From Variovorax boronicumulans (GTDB lineage: Bacteria > Pseudomonadota > Gammaproteobacteria > Burkholderiales > Burkholderiaceae_C), in the NCBI RefSeq assembly GCF_030812215.1, contig NZ_JAUSSG010000003.1, positions 62,001-126,000 of the forward strand: a stretch of 64,000 nt of DNA, written 5' to 3'. Positions 57,054 to 64,000 of the stretch are shown here, one piece after another (position 1 is the stretch's first letter; each line of letters begins with the position of its first letter). The position numbers and the translations under genes are program-made. A model generated the notes under the pieces. It saw only the letters and a list, made by a program, of their open reading frames with translations. It had not been told where the DNA came from and made no database searches.

Positions 57054-58001
57054 ATGAACCTGCTCGCCTCGATGCGCTACCTGGTGGCGCTCAACGAACA
57101 CAAGCATTTCGGGCGCGCCGCGCAGGCCTGCCACATCACCCAGCCCGCGTTGTCGAACGCCCTTCGGGCGCTGGAGACCGAGTTCGGCGTCGTCATCGTC
57201 AAGCGCGCCCGCGTCTACGTCGGGCTCACGCACGAGGGCGAGCGCGTGCTGGCCACGGCGCAGCGCATGCTGCGCGACAACGAGGTGCTGCTCCAGGAAC
57301 TGCGCAGCGACGTGGACAATCCCCACGGCCGACTGCGGATGGCCGCGGTGCCCACCGCCATCCCGATACTTTCGCGCTTCGCGGCCATGCTGCACCAGCG
57401 CCACCCGGGCATCCTGCCGGCCGTGCTTTCCATGAGTTCGCAGGACCTGGAGACCGGACTCGAGAGCCTCTCGATCGACCTGGCCCTCGGCTACACCGAG
57501 CGCATGCACATGCCCGGTATCAAGCTCAAGGCCTGGCCGCAAAGCATCGAGCACTACTTCCTGCTGCGGCGCGCCCAGACGCCTTCCGAAGACGAATTGC
57601 GCATCGGCCAGCCCATCACCTGGGCCGAGGCCGGCAAGCTGCCACTGTGCCTGCTCACCACCGACATGCACAACCGGTCCATCATGGACCAGTCCCTGCG
57701 CGAGGCCGGCGTGCCCGTGTCGCCGGCCATCGAGACCAACTCGGTGCTCACGCTCACGCTCGCGGTGAGCGCCGGCACCGTCAGCAGCGTGCTGCCGGGG
57801 GCGATGGTCGCGGCCGTGCGCAGCCACCGCGAGCTGGAGGCGCTGCCGCTGGTGGCGCCCGAGGTGCGCACGCCCATCGGCTTCATGACGCAGGACGGCG
57901 TGCGCTCTTCGCGCGCGCTCGATGCGGCACTGGCCTTCCTGCAGACGCCCGAATGGGCCGAGCAGGTGCGCCTGCACAGCGGAACGCTCGGCAGCGACTG
58001 A
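57054..58001 (+). CDS. LysR-family transcriptional regulator
   Basis: The 315-residue regulator has an N-terminal helix-turn-helix (about 1-62: MRYLVALNEHKHFGRAAQAC, ITQPALSNALRALE) and a LysR substrate-binding domain (about 90-300). It is encoded immediately upstream of the OFA transporter in the same direction. The 33-bp element shared by the OFA gene and the right-end FdhF-like gene is a natural candidate for its binding site, so it could control formate/oxalate functions, as LysR proteins do in related bacteria. The effector is unknown. Confidence 0.94.
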   Translation: MNLLASMRYLVALNEHKHFGRAAQACHITQPALSNALRALETEFGVVIVKRARVYVGLTHEGERVLATAQRMLRDNEVLLQELRSDVDNPHGRLRMAAVPTAIPILSRFAAMLHQRHPGILPAVLSMSSQDLETGLESLSIDLALGYTERMHMPGIKLKAWPQSIEHYFLLRRAQTPSEDELRIGQPITWAEAGKLPLCLLTTDMHNRSIMDQSLREAGVPVSPAIETNSVLTLTLAVSAGTVSSVLPGAMVAAVRSHRELEALPLVAPEVRTPIGFMTQDGVRSSRALDAALAFLQTPEWAEQVRLHSGTLGSD

Positions 58002-58034
58002 GTGAGCCCAGCCCGGGCAGGGGGCATTTAATTA

Positions 58035-58067
58035 TTGAATCGGCCCATGCGCCGATCGAATTTGACG
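58035..58067 (+). promoter_or_regulatory. 33-bp shared regulatory element, copy 1 (upstream of OFA transporter)
   Basis: Begins TTGAATCGGC, contains CATG and GCCGATCGAA, and ends TTTGACG. It matches 28 of 33 positions with 63,742-63,774, upstream of the FdhF-like gene. The imperfect inverted repeat TTGAATCGG...CCGATCGAA is the likely core. It ends 76 nt before the OFA start. Confidence 0.7.
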
Positions 58068-58143
58068 GCGTGTAAAACGTTCAGACACACTCCGCGGCCC
58101 GGATACAACACAAAAGTTACTCGTCCGGCGAACTAGGAGAAAT

Positions 58144-59841
58144 ATGGCAGGCTCAACTGCGGGCGTTCTCGATGGAGAACGCCTGGCTGGAGACGGGGTG
58201 CAAGCGCAGCCCGGCTTCCTCGATAAAGAACGCATCATCGCGGGCCCCGGTTTCAACCGTTGGCTGGTCCCCCCGGCCGCATTGGCCATCCACCTGTGCA
58301 TCGGCATGGCCTATGGCTTCTCGGTGTTCTGGCTGCCGCTGTCGAAGGCGCTGGGCACCGCGGGCACCGGCATCCAGGCCTGTGGCAAGGACGTGAGCTT
58401 CTTCACCGAACTCTTCACCACCACCTGCGACTGGCGCGTGGCCACGCTGGGCTGGATGTACACCCTGTTCTTCGTCTTCCTCGGCTGCTCCGCGGCGCTG
58501 TGGGGCGGCTGGCTCGAACGGGTCGGCCCACGCAAGGCCGGCGTGGTCTCGGCGATCTGCTGGTGCGGCGGCATGCTGCTCTCGGCGCTGGGCATTCATC
58601 TGCACCAGTTCTGGCTGATGATCCTCGGCTCGGGCGTGATCGGCGGCATCGGCCTCGGCCTGGGCTACATCTCGCCCGTGAGTACGCTGATCAAGTGGTT
58701 CCCCGACCGCCGTGGCATGGCCACAGGCATGGCCATCATGGGCTTCGGCGGTGGCGCGCTGATCGGTTCGCCGCTCGCGGCCGAGCTGATGAAGCACTTC
58801 TCCACTGCCACTGACGTGGGCGTGGCGCAGACCTTCGTGGTGATGGCGCTCGGCTACTTCGTCTTCATGCTGGCCGGCGCGCTCGGCTACCGCGTGCCGG
58901 CTTCGGGCTGGAAGCCCGCAGGCTGGACGCCGCCGCCGGTCCAGACCAGCAACGCCATGATCACGCAGCGCCACGTGCACGTGAAGAAGATCTGGGGAAT
59001 TCCGCAGTTCTGGCTGGTGTGGCTCGTGCTGTGCATGAATGTGAGCGCCGGTATCGGCGTGCTCGGCATTTCCGCGCTGATGCTGCAAGAGGTGTTCGGC
59101 GGCGCGCTGATCGGCGTGCCGGCCAAGATGGCCCAGCTCGACAAGGTGCAGCTCGCTTCCATCGCGGTGGTGGCGGCCGGTTTCACGGCGTTGCTGTCGC
59201 TGTTCAACATCGGCGGGCGCTTCATCTGGGCGAGCCTGTCGGACAAGCTGGGTCGCAAGCTCACCTACACCGTGTTCTTCGTGCTCGGCGGCATCCTCTA
59301 CGCGAGCATTCCCTCGTCGGCCGGCGCTGGCAGCAAGCTGCTGTTCGTGGGCGCGGCGTGCATCATCATCTCGATGTACGGCGGCGGCTTCGCCACGGTG
59401 CCGGCCTACCTGGCCGACCTGTTCGGCACGCAGTTCGTGGGCGCCATCCATGGCCGCCTGCTGACGGCCTGGGCCACGGCCGGGATCCTTGGGCCGATCG
59501 TCGTGAACTACATGCGCGAGTACCAGCTGGGCCTGAAGATACCGGCCGCGCAGGTCTACAACCAGACCATGTACATCCTCGTGGGCATGCTGGTGATCGG
59601 CTTCATTGCCAACCTGCTGGTGCGGCCCGTGGCGAGCCATCATTTCATGAGCGATGAGGAGCTGGCGGTCGAGAAGAAGCTCGCGCACGAAAAGGCCGTG
59701 GCCGCCGAAGTGGGCACGGGGTCGGGCGTGGCCGATAACGTGAGCCCCGTGGTGGTGGCCCTGGCCTGGATCGCCGTGGGCATTCCGTTGGGCTGGGGTG
59801 TCTACAAGACGCTGGTCAGCGCGGCCAACTTCTTCCACTGA
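58144..59841 (+). CDS. OFA-family MFS transporter (oxalate/formate antiporter-like)
   Basis: The 565-residue major-facilitator permease has about 12 helices. The family pattern is clear from NRWLVPPAALAIHLCIGMAY near 38-57, GLGYISPVSTLIKWFPDRRG (about 174-193, motif A-like) and GGRFIWASLSDKLGRKL (about 358-374). OFA members exchange oxalate for formate or carry other carboxylates. The N-terminal 35 residues and the C-terminal tail are longer than in OxlT. An AGGAGAAAT ribosome-binding site precedes the ATG. A strong hairpin follows the stop. Confidence 0.92.
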   Translation: MAGSTAGVLDGERLAGDGVQAQPGFLDKERIIAGPGFNRWLVPPAALAIHLCIGMAYGFSVFWLPLSKALGTAGTGIQACGKDVSFFTELFTTTCDWRVATLGWMYTLFFVFLGCSAALWGGWLERVGPRKAGVVSAICWCGGMLLSALGIHLHQFWLMILGSGVIGGIGLGLGYISPVSTLIKWFPDRRGMATGMAIMGFGGGALIGSPLAAELMKHFSTATDVGVAQTFVVMALGYFVFMLAGALGYRVPASGWKPAGWTPPPVQTSNAMITQRHVHVKKIWGIPQFWLVWLVLCMNVSAGIGVLGISALMLQEVFGGALIGVPAKMAQLDKVQLASIAVVAAGFTALLSLFNIGGRFIWASLSDKLGRKLTYTVFFVLGGILYASIPSSAGAGSKLLFVGAACIIISMYGGGFATVPAYLADLFGTQFVGAIHGRLLTAWATAGILGPIVVNYMREYQLGLKIPAAQVYNQTMYILVGMLVIGFIANLLVRPVASHHFMSDEELAVEKKLAHEKAVAAEVGTGSGVADNVSPVVVALAWIAVGIPLGWGVYKTLVSAANFFH

Positions 59842-59868
59842 ATCGCCGGCGCACGGCGTTTTCGATGA

Positions 59869-59907
59869 CGATGCGGCCGGCCGGGTTCACACCCGCCGGC
59901 CGCATCG
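59869..59907 (+). terminator. Strong hairpin after the OFA transporter
   Basis: Perfect 13-bp arms (CGATGCGGCCGGC at 59,869-59,881 and its complement at 59,895-59,907), with a possible inner GGGT/ACCC stem. The T tract is weak (GCCGTTTCC), so termination may need Rho. It separates the OFA gene from the ModE-like gene. Confidence 0.65.
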
Positions 59908-59964
59908 CCGTTTCCGGCCCGACATAGCGCTGGTGGCCGCGGATGGTTTACCCTTCGCGCCAAG

Positions 59965-60312
59965 ATGAAATCCAAAGTCCAGTTCCGCCTTCGCGTCTAT
60001 CGGGACGACACCATCGCCATCGGCCCCGGCAAGATCGCCGTGCTCGAAGCGGTGGCCGAGACGGGTTCGATTTCCGCGGCCGCCCGCCTGCTGGGCATGT
60101 CGTACCGCAGGGCCTGGATGCTGGTCGACGAGATGAACAAGGCCCTGATATCGCCCGCGGTGAACACCGCCGCCGGCGGCTCGCGCGGCGGCGGCACGGC
60201 GCTCACGCCGGTGGGCGAGGAAATCGTCAAGCACTACCGGGCCATCGAGAACGCCGCCAAGCTGGCCACGTCCGCCGACATTCGCGCCCTCACGCGGCTG
60301 CTGGCACCGTAG
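59965..60312 (+). CDS. ModE-like winged-helix regulator lacking molybdate-binding domain
   Basis: The 115-residue protein corresponds to the N-terminal DNA-binding domain of ModE: IGPGKIAVLEAVAETGSISA (about 19-38), ARLLGMSYRRAWMLVDEMN (about 40-58) and GGSRGGGTALTPVGEEIVKHYR. The two C-terminal Mop domains that bind molybdate in E. coli ModE (262 aa) are absent; the protein ends after the helix that leads into them. It precedes modBAC in the same direction and probably regulates it. How it senses molybdate is unclear. Confidence 0.9.
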   Translation: MKSKVQFRLRVYRDDTIAIGPGKIAVLEAVAETGSISAAARLLGMSYRRAWMLVDEMNKALISPAVNTAAGGSRGGGTALTPVGEEIVKHYRAIENAAKLATSADIRALTRLLAP

Positions 60313-60325
60313 CCAGGCACAGGCG

Positions 60326-60565
60326 CTAACGCTCGCCGGGTTCCGTCCACACCGCCCTGCGGCGCAGGACTTCGCCGATGTCATGCGCATCGGCCTGCGC
60401 CACCAGGAAAGACTGGCTCTCGCCGTCGGGGGCGACGATGGAAATCACGACGCCGTCGGAATCGATGGTCCGCTCGATGCGCCACTCGTGCACCTGTGTC
60501 ACATGGCGAAGCTCCGGCCTGCCGGAGGTCGATCGGACGACGGTGTCGTGGGCGGGTGGACGCAT
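60326..60565 (-). CDS. Small hypothetical protein
   Basis: A 79-residue reading with no recognised domain. It is rich in charged residues with alternating beta-type pattern (EWRIERTIDSDGVVISIV, ESQSFLVAQADA), which could be a small soluble domain. It lies opposite to the mod genes, between the ModE-like gene and modB. The start at MRPPAHDTVV was chosen; a longer frame upstream would run over the candidate ModE box. It may be spurious. Confidence 0.45.
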   Translation of the reverse strand: MRPPAHDTVVRSTSGRPELRHVTQVHEWRIERTIDSDGVVISIVAPDGESQSFLVAQADAHDIGEVLRRRAVWTEPGER

Positions 60566-60586
60566 GGGACTTTGCGGTCGGGACAA

Positions 60587-60610
60587 CGCTATGTTGGCCA
60601 GTATATGGAG
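60587..60610. promoter_or_regulatory. Candidate ModE box upstream of modB
   Basis: CGCTATGT, 7 nt, GTATATGGAG: half-sites with the 24-bp spacing that I recall for the E. coli modA operator (CGTTATAT...ACATAACG). The left half matches at 6 of 8 positions and the right half keeps the TAtAT core. It lies 68 nt before the modB start in an AT-rich pocket. The comparison is from memory. Confidence 0.45.
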
Positions 60611-60678
60611 ACTGGGCGCCTTGCGCACCTCCCGAAAGGAGGAATCCGCCTGTCGTGCAACAATCTCGCCGTATTCAA

Positions 60679-61362
60679 ATGAACACGACGCGCGCACTCA
60701 TCGCCTCGACCGACTGGTCGCCCCTGGTCCTGTCGCTCAAGGTCGCGGCGGTCGCGACCGTGCTGGCGCTGATCGTGGGCGTGGCGTTGGGCTGGGTGTT
60801 CGCGCGCAAGCGATTTTTCGGTCGCACCGTGCTGGAGGCCGTGTTCATGCTGCCGCTGGTGCTGCCGCCCACGGTGATCGGCTACGCGATCCTGGTGGCG
60901 GCCGGCCGCCGCAGCCCGTTGGGCGCGTGGCTGCGCGAGCACCTGGACTACACCATCATCTTCAGCTGGCACGGCGCCGTGGTGGCCTCGGCCGTGGTGG
61001 CGTTGCCGCTGGTGCTCAAGTCGGCGAGCGCCGCCTTCGAGAACGTCGACCGCTCGCTCGAAGCCGCGGCCAGCACGCTGCGCCAGTCGCCGTTCTCGGT
61101 GTTCCTGCGCGTGACGCTGCCGCTCGCCTGGCCCGGCATCCTGGCCGGCACGCTGCTGGCGTTCGCGCGGGCCATGGGCGAGTTCGGTGCTTCGCTGATG
61201 GTGGCGGGCTCGATCCCCAAGCAGACCCAGACGCTCTCGATGGCCATCTACGACGCGGTGCAGGCCGGGCACGACGACCTCGCGCTGCTGTTGGTGATCG
61301 TGACTTCGGTGCTGTCGATCGTCGTGCTCGTGCTGTCCAACCGCTTCTTCTCGCTGAGATGA
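60679..61362 (+). CDS. modB: Molybdate ABC transporter permease
   Basis: The 227-residue inner-membrane permease has five to six helices and the ABC-permease EAA loop (LEAASTLRQSPFSVFLRVTL with the Gly of LPLAWPGILAGTLL, about 131-160). VEAVFMLPLVLPPTVIGYA-like segment (core FMLPLVLPPTVIGYA, about 57-71) is typical of ModB. It is separated from modA by 156 nt holding a dispersed repeat rather than forming the usual tight modABC order. The order here is modB-modA-modC. Confidence 0.94.
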   Translation: MNTTRALIASTDWSPLVLSLKVAAVATVLALIVGVALGWVFARKRFFGRTVLEAVFMLPLVLPPTVIGYAILVAAGRRSPLGAWLREHLDYTIIFSWHGAVVASAVVALPLVLKSASAAFENVDRSLEAAASTLRQSPFSVFLRVTLPLAWPGILAGTLLAFARAMGEFGASLMVAGSIPKQTQTLSMAIYDAVQAGHDDLALLLVIVTSVLSIVVLVLSNRFFSLR

Positions 61363-61363
61363 C

Positions 61364-61457
61364 GCTCACCCCCAGTCTTCGCGCACTTCGTGTCGCTTCG
61401 CCAACCCCCTTTCAGGGGGCAACACCAGCGGCCCGGCAAAGCCGGTTCCGCGGTGTT
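61364..61457 (+). repeat. Stop-proximal three-hairpin repeat, copy 3
   Basis: In the sense of modB it starts right after the TGA stop (TGACGCTCACCCCCAG). It is nearly identical to the reverse of the 23,411 and 36,239 copies. It separates modB from modA in an otherwise continuous operon; a transcript reading through would contain three hairpins. Confidence 0.85.
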
Positions 61458-61518
61458 CCCCGAAGGGATCGCCGCCGCTTTGGGTTATCAGTCCTTCAAT
61501 AATCCCCAGGAGATTTCC

Positions 61519-62268
61519 ATGCGCCCGTTCCGCCTCTTGTCCCTTGTTGTTGCACTGGCCCTGCCGCTGGCCGCCGCCGCGCAGCAGATCACCATGTCCG
61601 CGGCCGCCAGCCTGACCGACGCGTTCAAGGAAATCGGCCCCAAGTTCGAGGCCGCCAGGCCCGGCGCCACGGTGCGCTTCAACTTCGCCGCCTCGGGCGT
61701 GCTGCTGCAGCAGATCGGGCAGGGCGCCCCGGTCGACGTGTTCGCGAGCGCCGACCAGGAAACCATGAACCGCGGCGCCGAGCAGAAGCTCATCGACGTT
61801 GCCACCCGCAAGAACTTCGTGAGCAACAGCCTCGTGCTGGTCGAGCCCGCGAAAGACGGCGTCGGCGTCAAGTCGCTGCAGGACCTCACCGGTGCCAGTG
61901 TCAAGAAAATCGCCGTCGGCAAGACCGCCACCGTGCCGGTCGGCCGCTACACCAAGCAGGTGCTCGACAACGCCAATCTCTGGACCGTGCTCGAACCCAA
62001 GTTCGTGCAGGCCGACAGCGTGCGCCAGGTGCTCGACTACGTGAGCCGCGGCGAGGTCGAGGCCGGCTTCGTCTACCGCACCGACGCAGCGGTGGCTGGC
62101 GACAAGGTCAGGATCGCCCTCTCGCCTTCGAGCAGCAGCCCCGTGACGTACCCGATCGCGGTGGTGGCCGAGAGCAGGCAGAAGTCGCTGGCCGGCGACT
62201 TCCTCAACTTCCTCTCGACCGACGCCGCGCAGGAAGTGCTCGCCCGCTACGGATTCGGCAAGCCATGA
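61519..62268 (+). CDS. modA: Molybdate ABC transporter substrate-binding protein
   Basis: The 249-residue periplasmic protein has a signal peptide (about 1-21, ending AAA-Q) and ModA motifs: TMSAAASLTDAFKEIGPKFE (about 25-44), FNFAASGVLLQQIGQGAPVD (about 53-72), VFASADQETMN and YPIAVVAESRQKSLAGDFLN near 213-232. It binds molybdate or tungstate. AGGAGAT is its ribosome-binding site. The stop overlaps the modC start by 4 nt. Confidence 0.95.
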   Translation: MRPFRLLSLVVALALPLAAAAQQITMSAAASLTDAFKEIGPKFEAARPGATVRFNFAASGVLLQQIGQGAPVDVFASADQETMNRGAEQKLIDVATRKNFVSNSLVLVEPAKDGVGVKSLQDLTGASVKKIAVGKTATVPVGRYTKQVLDNANLWTVLEPKFVQADSVRQVLDYVSRGEVEAGFVYRTDAAVAGDKVRIALSPSSSSPVTYPIAVVAESRQKSLAGDFLNFLSTDAAQEVLARYGFGKP

Positions 62269-63053
62269 TCGACGTCGATCTGAAGCTCACGGTCCGGGAC
62301 GGGGCGCGCCGCTTCGACCTGGCCGCGCGCTTTCAGACCGATGTTCCCTTCGCCGCGCTCTACGGCCCGTCGGGCGCGGGCAAGTCGCTCACGCTGCAAG
62401 CCATCGCGGGGTTGCTGCATCCGTCGTCGGGGCATGTGCGCCTGGATGGCCGCACGCTCTACGACGCGGCGCAGCGCATCGACGTGCCGGCGCCCGAGCG
62501 GCGCATCGGCTACCTGTTCCAGAACTACGCGCTGTTCCCGCACCTCACGGTGCGCGAGAACGTGTCCTTCGGCCTCACCTCGTGGCGCCGTCGCCGGTTG
62601 CCGCCGAAAGAGGCGGAGACGGTGCAGGCCCTGCTCGAAGGTTTCGGCCTCGCCGCGCTCGCCGACAGCCGGCCGCAAAAACTCTCGGGCGGCCAGCAGC
62701 AGCGCGTGGCGCTCGCGCGTGCGCTGGCCTGCCAGCCGCAGGTGCTGCTGCTCGACGAACCCTTCGCTGCCCTCAACCCGATGCTGCGCAGCGAACTGCG
62801 CAACGAGCTTGCACAGGTGCGCCGCCAGTGGGGCATTCCGGTGCTGATGATCACGCACGACATCGAGGACGTGCTCGCGCTTGCCGACGTGGCGTTTGTC
62901 TACAAGGACGGCCAGGTGGTGCGCGAGATCGACCTGCACACCGCCGAGAGCCGCGACATCGCACTGCGCGAAGTGGCGGGCGCGCCGTTGGTCGAGGAGA
63001 CGCCGCTGCGCAGCAAGTTGCGTGGTCTGCTGACCCAGGATGTGCGGGGTTGA
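62265..63053 (+). CDS. modC: Molybdate ABC transporter ATP-binding protein (short form)
   Basis: The 262-residue ATPase has Walker A GPSGAGKS (about 34-41), Q-loop in GYLFQNYALFPHLTVRENV (about 82-100), signature LSGGQQQRVALARALA (about 139-154), Walker B VLLLDEPFAAL (about 159-169) and switch His in ITHDIEDV. The C-terminal TOBE/Mop domain of the E. coli protein (352 aa) is absent, so the usual molybdate-dependent trans-inhibition should not operate. Translation is coupled to modA. Confidence 0.93.
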   Translation: MIDVDLKLTVRDGARRFDLAARFQTDVPFAALYGPSGAGKSLTLQAIAGLLHPSSGHVRLDGRTLYDAAQRIDVPAPERRIGYLFQNYALFPHLTVRENVSFGLTSWRRRRLPPKEAETVQALLEGFGLAALADSRPQKLSGGQQQRVALARALACQPQVLLLDEPFAALNPMLRSELRNELAQVRRQWGIPVLMITHDIEDVLALADVAFVYKDGQVVREIDLHTAESRDIALREVAGAPLVEETPLRSKLRGLLTQDVRG

Positions 63054-63058
63054 TGTTT

Positions 63059-63080
63059 GTGTATTGCATATGCGATACAC
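63059..63080. promoter_or_regulatory. 22-bp palindrome, likely toxin-antitoxin operator
   Basis: Eleven-bp arms meet at TGCATATGCG with one G:T mismatch (10 of 11 pairs). It is 5 nt after the modC stop and 8 nt before the antitoxin ATG, and lies in an AT-rich pocket. RHH antitoxins autoregulate by binding such sites. Confidence 0.65.
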
Positions 63081-63087
63081 TTTTTCG

Positions 63088-63366
63088 ATGAAATCCGCCA
63101 CCATCCCTTCCGTGCGTGTCGAGCCCGAGTTCCGGGCTGAAGTCGAGCAGGTTCTCGGTGAGGGCGAGTCCATGTCCCAATTCGTCGAAGCAGCCGTTCG
63201 TGCATGCGTTTCGCAGCGGAAGAGCCAGGCAGAGTTTGTTGCTCGCGGTATGAAATCCCTGACCAGCGCGCGTCGCAGTGGCGATTACGTCGATGCGAGT
63301 GAAGTGATGCAGCGCCTTAAGACAAGACTGGCCACGGCGAAGCGACAGAGCACTGCGCGCAGGTGA
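63088..63366 (+). CDS. RHH-type antitoxin (YlcI/YnfO or ParD-like)
   Basis: The 92-residue protein has an N-terminal ribbon-helix-helix pattern (IPSVRVEPEFRAEVEQVL, SMSQFVEAAVRACV, about 6-45) and a basic C-terminal tail expected to wrap the toxin. The start MKSATIPSVRV is preferred over an upstream ATG inside the palindrome. It overlaps the toxin GTG start by 4 nt. Composition is less GC-rich than its neighbours, consistent with horizontal gain. Confidence 0.85.
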   Translation: MKSATIPSVRVEPEFRAEVEQVLGEGESMSQFVEAAVRACVSQRKSQAEFVARGMKSLTSARRSGDYVDASEVMQRLKTRLATAKRQSTARR

Positions 63367-63677
63367 GTTACACGGTCCGATTCACGCGCCAGGCGGCTGA
63401 AGACCTGCAGCGGTTGTATGACTTCGTGGTCGACCGGGAACTCGAAAGAGGCGGAGACTTGGAGTTGGCCTCGCGGGCTCTCGAAGCGATAGAGCACGGC
63501 ATTGCCACCCTCGCTTTCTCACCCTTTACTTGCCGCAAGGCGAGCGGCAGCCCTTTCATTCGCGAACTCGTGATTCCGTTTGGCGCCAGTGGCTATGTCG
63601 CCCTGTTCGAGATAGAGGCGAGCGACTTGATCGTCGTGGCTGCTGTCAGGCATCAGCGGGAAGACGACTACCACTGA
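63363..63677 (+). CDS. ParE/RelE-family toxin
   Basis: The 104-residue protein belongs to the plasmid-stabilisation ParE/RelE fold: VRFTRQAAEDLQRLYDFVVD (about 5-24), FTCRKASGSPFIRELVIPF (about 56-74) and VVAAVRHQREDDYH at the C-terminus (about 91-104) match the family. ParE toxins inhibit DNA gyrase; RelE cleaves mRNA; which applies is not clear. It starts GTG, coupled to the antitoxin. Confidence 0.88.
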   Translation: MSYTVRFTRQAAEDLQRLYDFVVDRELERGGDLELASRALEAIEHGIATLAFSPFTCRKASGSPFIRELVIPFGASGYVALFEIEASDLIVVAAVRHQREDDYH

Positions 63678-63741
63678 ATCCGGTGCGCTCCCGCGCAGCG
63701 GCGTGCGCTGCCCAGCTTGGCGCCGCCTCTTCATTTCCTTT

Positions 63742-63774
63742 TTGAATCGGCGCATGTCCCGATTCAATTTGACG
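63742..63774 (+). promoter_or_regulatory. 33-bp shared regulatory element, copy 2 (upstream of FdhF-like gene)
   Basis: Perfect 9-bp inverted repeat TTGAATCGG / CCGATTCAA around 8 nt, followed by TTTGACG. It matches 28 of 33 positions with 58,035-58,067 and ends 31 nt before the FdhF-like ATG. It is a candidate operator for the LysR regulator of this locus. Confidence 0.72.
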
Positions 63775-63805
63775 CTCCCTGTGCCCACGGCGAACACTCG
63801 CCCGC

Positions 63806-64000
63806 ATGAGCAGTGAGCAGAAGATCGAGTTTTACAAGGGCCCCGCGGGCGGTTGGGGCGCACTTCGCAGCGTGACGAATGCGCTGCTGCGGCAGGACAT
63901 TCCCCTCAAGGGCGCGAAGACGCTGCTCTCGGCCAACCAGCCCGACGGTTTCGACTGCCCCGGCTGCGCCTGGCCCGACCGCAACCACGCCTCGACCTTC
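63806..64000 (+). CDS. FdhF/YdeP-family molybdopterin oxidoreductase, N-terminal fragment
   Basis: The first 65 codons of a longer gene that leaves the window. IEFYKGPAGGWGALRSV (about 7-23), QPDGFDCPGCAWPDRNHA near 46-63 and the preceding KTLLSAN match the start of the TIGR01701 FdhF/YdeP group of molybdopterin oxidoreductases, which are formate-dehydrogenase-like but of uncertain substrate. It would need molybdenum cofactor, which fits the adjacent mod genes, and it shares an upstream element with the OFA transporter. Confidence 0.85.
   Translation, partial: MSSEQKIEFYKGPAGGWGALRSVTNALLRQDIPLKGAKTLLSANQPDGFDCPGCAWPDRNHASTF

Follow-up and report, generated by a model that had tools for sequence, protein, structure and literature searches.

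The 64,000-nucleotide (nt) stretch of Variovorax boronicumulans DNA analysed here (contig NZ_JAUSSG010000003.1, positions 62,001 to 126,000 of the forward strand; the window) holds two similar 33-bp elements 5.7 kb apart. One stands upstream of a gene for an OFA-family transporter and the other upstream of a gene for an FdhF-like molybdopterin oxidoreductase, and the initial annotation of the window proposed that they mark one regulon for the transport and oxidation of formate or oxalate. The locus raises the question of whether the two genes share a regulator and, if so, which regulator and which substrate are involved. On the comparative evidence described below, the two elements are very probably the operator-promoters of one small formate regulon, which would be under the control of the LysR-family protein encoded directly before the first copy (57054-58001, followed by the element from 58025).

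The copies at 58035-58067 and 63742-63774 were identical at 28 of 33 bases and lay 76 nt (OFA) and 31 nt (FdhF) before the start codons, all as originally annotated. In a comparison of the 300 bp upstream of each gene, the best pair of 33-base segments shared 28 bases, compared with 18-21 in 12 mononucleotide shuffles, and the 33-base pattern occurred twice in the window versus 0 times in 100 dinucleotide shuffles. With up to 3 mismatches allowed, the pattern was found at these two places only in the 6.75-Mb genome, and an extended 42-base pattern returned the same two places and none else. Conservation ran upstream to a CATTT motif, which extends both copies to the limits given in Table 1 (35 of 43 bases identical). 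As noted earlier, the 9-bp arms of the inverted repeat, separated by 8 nt, matched perfectly in copy 2 and imperfectly in copy 1. The imperfection is not decay, because the same deviation (TCGAA in place of TTCAA) was kept in 16 of the 20 above-threshold OFA sites of the genus.

A pair of similar copies separated by 5.7 kb could also arise from a dispersed repeat, the end of a mobile element or a recent duplication before both genes. The probability of such an origin is negligible, given that the copies occupied orthologous positions with promoter-specific variants and near-fixed spacing across species, and that related genomes with a match held one or two copies each. The reversed pattern gave 0 matches across 250 genomes of the family. 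A plain repeat or chance match was ruled out by the copy number in the genome, the shuffles and this zero.

Genomes and loci of the comparison set are referred to by G- and L-numbers, respectively. The first set contained 61 genomes, 37 of the same genus (the window's own included) and 24 from other families of the order; the second set added 24 more of the same genus. The strict pattern was found in 24 of the 61 genomes of the first set, all 24 of the same genus, and in 14 of the 24 of the second set (38 of 61 same-genus genomes in total). An orthologue of the LysR gene was present in 56 of the 61 same-genus genomes, where one frame with an internal stop (L087 of G071) was counted as is, and none of the five genomes without it had a strict site. 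The gene apbC preceded LysR in most of the 56 loci. The next recognised gene after LysR was OFA in 24, fdsGB in 22, modE in 3, FdhF in 2, fdhD in 2 and a distant FdsGB-like formate dehydrogenase, 1.0-2.2 kb past LysR, in 3.

When the 250 bp before each genus start were scanned with a site matrix at a score of at least 20, a site was found at 20 of 24 OFA, 26 of 28 FdhF and 21 of 26 fdsGB starts, and at 0 of 276 other starts (apbC, LysR, modE, modB, modA, modC, fdhD, fdsA, antitoxin and toxin). The matrix was trained on sites of the same loci, which makes the count circular in part. Conservation of the element upstream of orthologous OFA and FdhF genes was evident across relatives. The genes between the two copies had been annotated as lacking the element, and none stood before them in the window genome; in the genus loci, no start of modE, modB, modA or modC (30 each), antitoxin (8) or toxin (7) scored above threshold. 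The five fdsGB misses and the FdhF miss of G006 all stand behind OFA, while the FdhF of G022 (17.4) and the OFA of G081 (16.7) scored below 20. FdhF as a first gene usually had its own site, even on a contig apart from LysR (G019, G021), and genomes with modE after LysR and without OFA (G062, G072, G032) had a single site, before FdhF.

A further scan, not circular in this way, covered 80 named loci that were picked by the LysR gene alone; its matrix was built from 33 genus sites. Targets were defined as OFA, fdsGB or FdhF matches of more than 50% identity, on the same strand and with the start inside the locus. The named loci gave 60 matrix matches and the reversed sequences 0. A site lay 33-420 bp before the formate-type target in 55 of the 56 target-bearing loci (by first target: fdsGB 29/29, OFA 24/25, FdhF 2/2), and the sole miss, L213, scored 16.9. 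In L172 the site stood before fdsGB, and the OFA gene preceding fdsGB had none. Where the target was 1.3-3.2 kb from LysR (L151, L164, L169, L174, L180, L190, L222), the site stayed with the target. Named loci without a recognised target (n = 24, some cut by contig ends) had no site in 20 cases and a site in 4. Among records not titled Variovorax, some of which may nevertheless belong to the same genus, 39 of 40 target-bearing loci had a site. The site therefore follows the target and not the LysR gene, as seen from its position 5.7 kb from copy 1 in the window, on another contig in G019 and G021, and with the distant targets of the named loci.

The anatomy of the element was read from a footprint built on 77 de-duplicated sites, of which 73 were kept after removal of 4 reversed palindrome reads. 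Numbered along the 33-bp element, the conserved stretch in the 77 sites consisted of CATTT (-9 to -5), TTGAAT (1-6), CATGT (12-16), GATTCAA (20-26) and TTTGAC (27-32). Two T-N11-A boxes were recognised in the 73 sites. Box 1 (T-7 to A5) kept both T and A in 72 of 73 and lies in the position of a recognition box upstream of the promoter. Box 2 (T14 to A26), also kept in 72 of 73, has little inner symmetry, is centred 21 bp downstream of box 1 and stands directly before TTGAC. TTGAC or TGGAC was conserved as a -35 sequence, and an A.A[CG]T box was found 18 or 19 nt past position 33 in 69 of 73 sites, giving a spacer of 17-18 nt. If transcription starts 7 nt past the -10 box, the two boxes of the window copies would be centred at about -65 (box 1) and -44 (box 2). 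This arrangement (CATTT, two T-N11-A boxes 21 bp apart, a -35 and a weak -10) is a normal LysR layout.

A symmetry scan ranked the annotated 26-bp repeat first (centre 13.5, score 7.39), followed by centre 3.0 (5.63) and the centre of box 1 (-1.0; 5.47). The visible inverted repeat is real, and it joins half-sites of both T-N11-A boxes. Because the two-box reading follows conservation and LysR spacing and not symmetry, the 9-bp inverted repeat was rejected as the whole operator in favour of the two boxes plus CATTT. The annotated 33-bp unit was thus right about the repeat and too short as a functional element, and its TTTGACG tail is better read as a -35 region. Use of recognition and activation sites (RBS/ABS) and the T-N11-A motif have been described for LysR-type operators (PMC12609908). 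Like classical operators, those found here have two T-N11-A boxes upstream of the promoter, consistent with tetramer binding; unlike in classical operators, the strongest symmetry (9-bp repeat, 8-nt spacer) links half-sites of both boxes and does not lie within one box.

The TTGACG tail and the ACACT box resemble -35 and -10 sequences and persist in two LysR-less genomes, which would fit an unregulated core promoter or sigma-factor site common to both genes. This is very improbable, since the conserved positions extend 37 bases 5' of the -35 hexamer and are gone in the LysR-less genomes G079 and G087, which retain TTGACC or TTGACG and, 18 nt further on, a CACACT box. With the operator part missing while -35 and -10 stay, a core promoter as the sole explanation was ruled out.

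Co-occurrence of site and LysR gene was surveyed in 250 family genomes, using a looser pattern for the site and a LysR profile at E <= 1e-70. The pattern was found in 31 genomes and the LysR gene in 71. The LysR gene was present in 30 of the 31 site genomes; a site occurred in 30 of 71 genomes with LysR versus 1 of 179 without (Fisher p = 5e-18, shared ancestry ignored). Of 27 site loci first retrieved, 14 had the site before fdsGB or a distant version of it, 10 before OFA, 1 before FdhF, 1 before an fdhD-like gene and 1 before nothing recognised. Among 29 newly retrieved LysR loci, several had diverged versions of the element and a few had none. In three genomes without LysR, apbC is directly followed by a target (G078, FdhF; G079, OFA-fds; G087, fds), and none of the three has the element; a 40-bp gap in G078 suggests that LysR and site were lost together by one deletion.

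Several results weigh against one regulon under this LysR protein, in addition to the circularity of the genus count. Species counts are not independent of ancestry, and 41 of the 71 LysR-bearing family genomes lack the strict pattern. The OFA genes of G021, G023 and G024, each in an OFA-fds unit, have no element although LysR is present (their TTGACG and ACACT box are kept), and neither does the OFA gene of G028 (76% identity), which stands apart from its LysR gene (that LysR 56% identity). In G026 and G080, LysR is followed by fdhD and no element was found. The region of the second fds operon of the window genome, on another contig (C1; L292, G000:C1:378000-393000), is also without the element, so that not all formate oxidation belongs to the regulon. 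Finally, G086 has a site before its fdhD-like gene and no LysR match at the cut-off. Genomes outside the start table, with OFA (G079, G028) or with FdhF at 80% identity or more (G078, G012), carried no element either; G079, G078 and G012 are without LysR, and the G012 genome is only 62% complete. More distant FdhF relatives within the genus, of 47-62% identity (G023, G026 and G081, the last fetched as an FdhF gene fragment with surroundings) and the OFA gene of G028 had no element at a matrix score of 12 or more.

The site of G086 and the three LysR-bearing genomes without an element before OFA would be expected if another, unlinked regulator bound the element and the neighbouring LysR were a bystander. 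We regard this as decidedly unlikely in view of the co-occurrence (LysR in 30 of the 31 genomes with a site and in 71 of all 250), the T-N11-A layout at LysR spacing and the three LysR-less genomes without a site, though in G078 one deletion could explain both losses. Co-occurrence, conserved neighbourhood and fit to a LysR operator layout make the LysR protein encoded before copy 1 the best candidate for the regulator. The proposal of one regulon was supported by the genus starts, the named loci and the distribution of LysR.

As to the substrate, the initial annotation had left formate or oxalate. Formate is favoured because fds replaces OFA behind the same LysR gene in 22 of the 56 genus loci. 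Aligned with solved formate dehydrogenases (chains of 7qv7 and 6tg9), FdhF shows the Cys/Sec-His pair as Cys184-His185 and the Arg as Arg405; these are residues at the molybdenum site of such enzymes. The gene fdhD lies downstream of FdhF. The OFA protein reached the curated threshold of neither named transporter model of NCBIfam, scoring 285 bits with the L-lactate MFS transporter model (cut-off 320) and 134 bits with that of the oxalate/formate antiport family (cut-off 375), so that the profiles do not fix its substrate.

The same operator and LysR protein might instead respond to oxalate or another small carboxylate, in a regulon for an oxalate pathway that ends in formate oxidation. The OFA protein belongs to a family named for oxalate/formate antiport (its score being below the model cut-off), and the window genome has one gene above the family cut-off for oxalyl-CoA decarboxylase, a clear match (1003 bits versus 739). 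No site was found near that gene, where neither pattern matched and the matrix reached at most 3.9 over its 16-kb region, and what the site precedes in other species are OFA and various types of formate dehydrogenase gene. An oxalate regulon is therefore considered unlikely, and the oxalate half of the original proposal is lowered accordingly.

The promoters of the two genes differ in their leaders. Among genus FdhF promoters, the ATG was 6-7 nt after the -10 box in 25 of 27, and 26 of 27 had no Shine-Dalgarno-like motif. The genus OFA promoters had 44-88 nt from -10 to start and a Shine-Dalgarno-like motif in 20 of 21, and those of fdsGB 10-123 nt and the motif in 11 of 21. Because of the short gap between -10 and ATG, the FdhF mRNA is predicted to start at its AUG and to be leaderless.

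In the proposed formate regulon, a LysR tetramer would bind the two T-N11-A boxes, which are spaced by two helical turns (21 bp from centre to centre). Box 1 near -65 would serve as the recognition site and box 2 near -44 as the activation site, before a good -35 and a weak -10. The formate-bound regulator would activate RNA polymerase at both promoters. The mRNA of the OFA transporter would then have a leader that contains a ribosome site, and that of the FdhF/YdeP-type formate dehydrogenase, which is followed by FdhD, would be leaderless.

Cupriavidus necator FdsR is a LysR-type protein, and the control of the NAD-linked formate dehydrogenase operon of this organism (Ralstonia eutropha) was reportedly described by Oh and Bowien in 1999. 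The LysR gene studied here is similar to FdsR by neighbourhood, standing directly before fdsGB in 22 of 56 genus loci. It differs in that the targets in the window genome are OFA and, at a second distant site, a YdeP-type FdhF, while the resident fds has no site. A plasmid search for a named FdsR locus covered 31 records, and the best place in each was below 60% identity. C. necator FdsR is listed with its promoter as a regulator-promoter pair among formate-inducible systems (Table 1 of PMC7057948). In Pseudomonas putida, the FdhF/YdeP enzymes PP_0256-0257 and PP_4596 are formate-induced, and their deletion lowers formate tolerance (PMC10308882). PP_0256 resembles the window gene in family and in the adjoining fdhD (PP_0257); LysR appears nowhere in the main text of that paper, and the regulatory site is the new part here. 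Among the matches listed in literature searches of open-licence PubMed Central, none showed a description of this operator.

Table 1. Features of the window locus, with the proposed operator-promoters and the genes around them.
Feature	Position	Strand	Basis
LysR-family regulator, 315 amino acids, proposed binder of both elements (FdsR-like by neighbourhood)	57054..58001	+	Pfam HTH_1 and LysR_substrate over cut-offs
Putative operator copy 1 (OFA): CATTT box, LysR half-sites, -35; includes 58035-58067	58025..58067	+	Footprint over 77 sites
Presumed recognition site of copy 1 (first T-N11-A box), centred near -65	58027..58039	+	T and A in 72/73
Presumed activation site of copy 1 (second T-N11-A box), centred near -44, 21 bp downstream of box 1	58048..58060	+	T and A in 72/73
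Putative -35 hexamer TTGACG of OFA promoter, end of the annotated element	58062..58067	+	TTGAC/TGGAC conserved; TTGACC or TTGACG in LysR-less G079, G087
-10-like hexamer CACACT of OFA, 18-nt spacer	58086..58091	+	A.A[CG]T with a spacer of 17 or 18 nt in 69/73
OFA-family MFS transporter, 565 amino acids, fused C-terminal tail domain	58144..59841	+	Pfam MFS_1
ModE-like regulator, modB, modA, modC, between both sites, no own element	59965..63053	+	NCBIfam; 0 above-threshold sites, 30 starts each
Putative operator copy 2 (FdhF), layout as copy 1; includes 63742-63774	63732..63774	+	Footprint
T-N11-A box 1 of copy 2	63734..63746	+	T and A in 72/73
T-N11-A box 2 of copy 2	63755..63767	+	T and A in 72/73
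Putative -35 hexamer TTGACG of FdhF promoter	63769..63774	+	Conserved TTGAC/TGGAC
-10-like hexamer AACACT of FdhF, 18-nt spacer, 7 nt before ATG, predicted leaderless	63793..63798	+	6-7 nt gap in 25/27 genus FdhF promoters
FdhF/YdeP-family molybdopterin oxidoreductase, 784 amino acids, runs past the window (whole: L003:8807-11161)	63806..64000	+	TIGR01701 970 bits, cut-off 582; Pfam Molybdopterin and Molydop_binding

The best NCBIfam match of the LysR protein was CynR (130 bits, below the cut-off of 277), and its closest source-named relatives were from Variovorax, at 98% identity. The C-terminus of the OFA protein carries a fused MFS_OXA_tail 'small subunit' domain at residues 535-565 (59746-59838; NCBIfam, 41.5 bits, cut-off 24). 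The ModE-like protein (59965-60312) is only 115 amino acids long; its sole Pfam match was a LysR-type helix-turn-helix, with no molybdate-binding domain found in Pfam, and its NCBIfam ModE domain score was 88.9 bits, below the cut-off of 98.5. A toxin-antitoxin pair just before the FdhF promoter (63088-63677) consists of a YlcI/YnfO-type antitoxin (NCBIfam) and a ParE-type toxin (Pfam, 47 bits); its distribution is patchy, with both genes in 7 of 61 tabulated loci and the antitoxin alone in 1 of 61. A small reading frame of 94 amino acids between FdhF and FdhD (L003:11158-11440) had no NCBIfam or Pfam match. In the genus fds operon, FdsG and FdsB are fused in one reading frame (L126:2392-4218 and relatives). 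Genes in the opposite direction beside the second fds operon of the window genome look ferredoxin-like by eye.

LysR control of formate dehydrogenase is already known; what is new is the operator, the variety of enzymes that it serves across the family and the predicted leaderless FdhF mRNA. We tentatively suggest, as a possibility that falls somewhat short of even, that the system is an exchangeable formate module of the Comamonadaceae and kin, in which the LysR operator is constant, the enzyme varies (fused FdsGB-FdsA, YdeP-type FdhF or a distant FdsGB-like enzyme), OFA is added and the FdhF version is leaderless. If so, transport and oxidation would share one signal and be translated by different routes, and the YdeP-type FdhF would be a working formate dehydrogenase interchangeable with Fds. 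The results provide a precise candidate operator of a family-wide LysR regulon for formate, and would tie the poorly understood FdhF/YdeP oxidoreductases to a control shared with NAD-linked formate dehydrogenases. The two compact promoters, one apparently leaderless, are candidate formate sensors.

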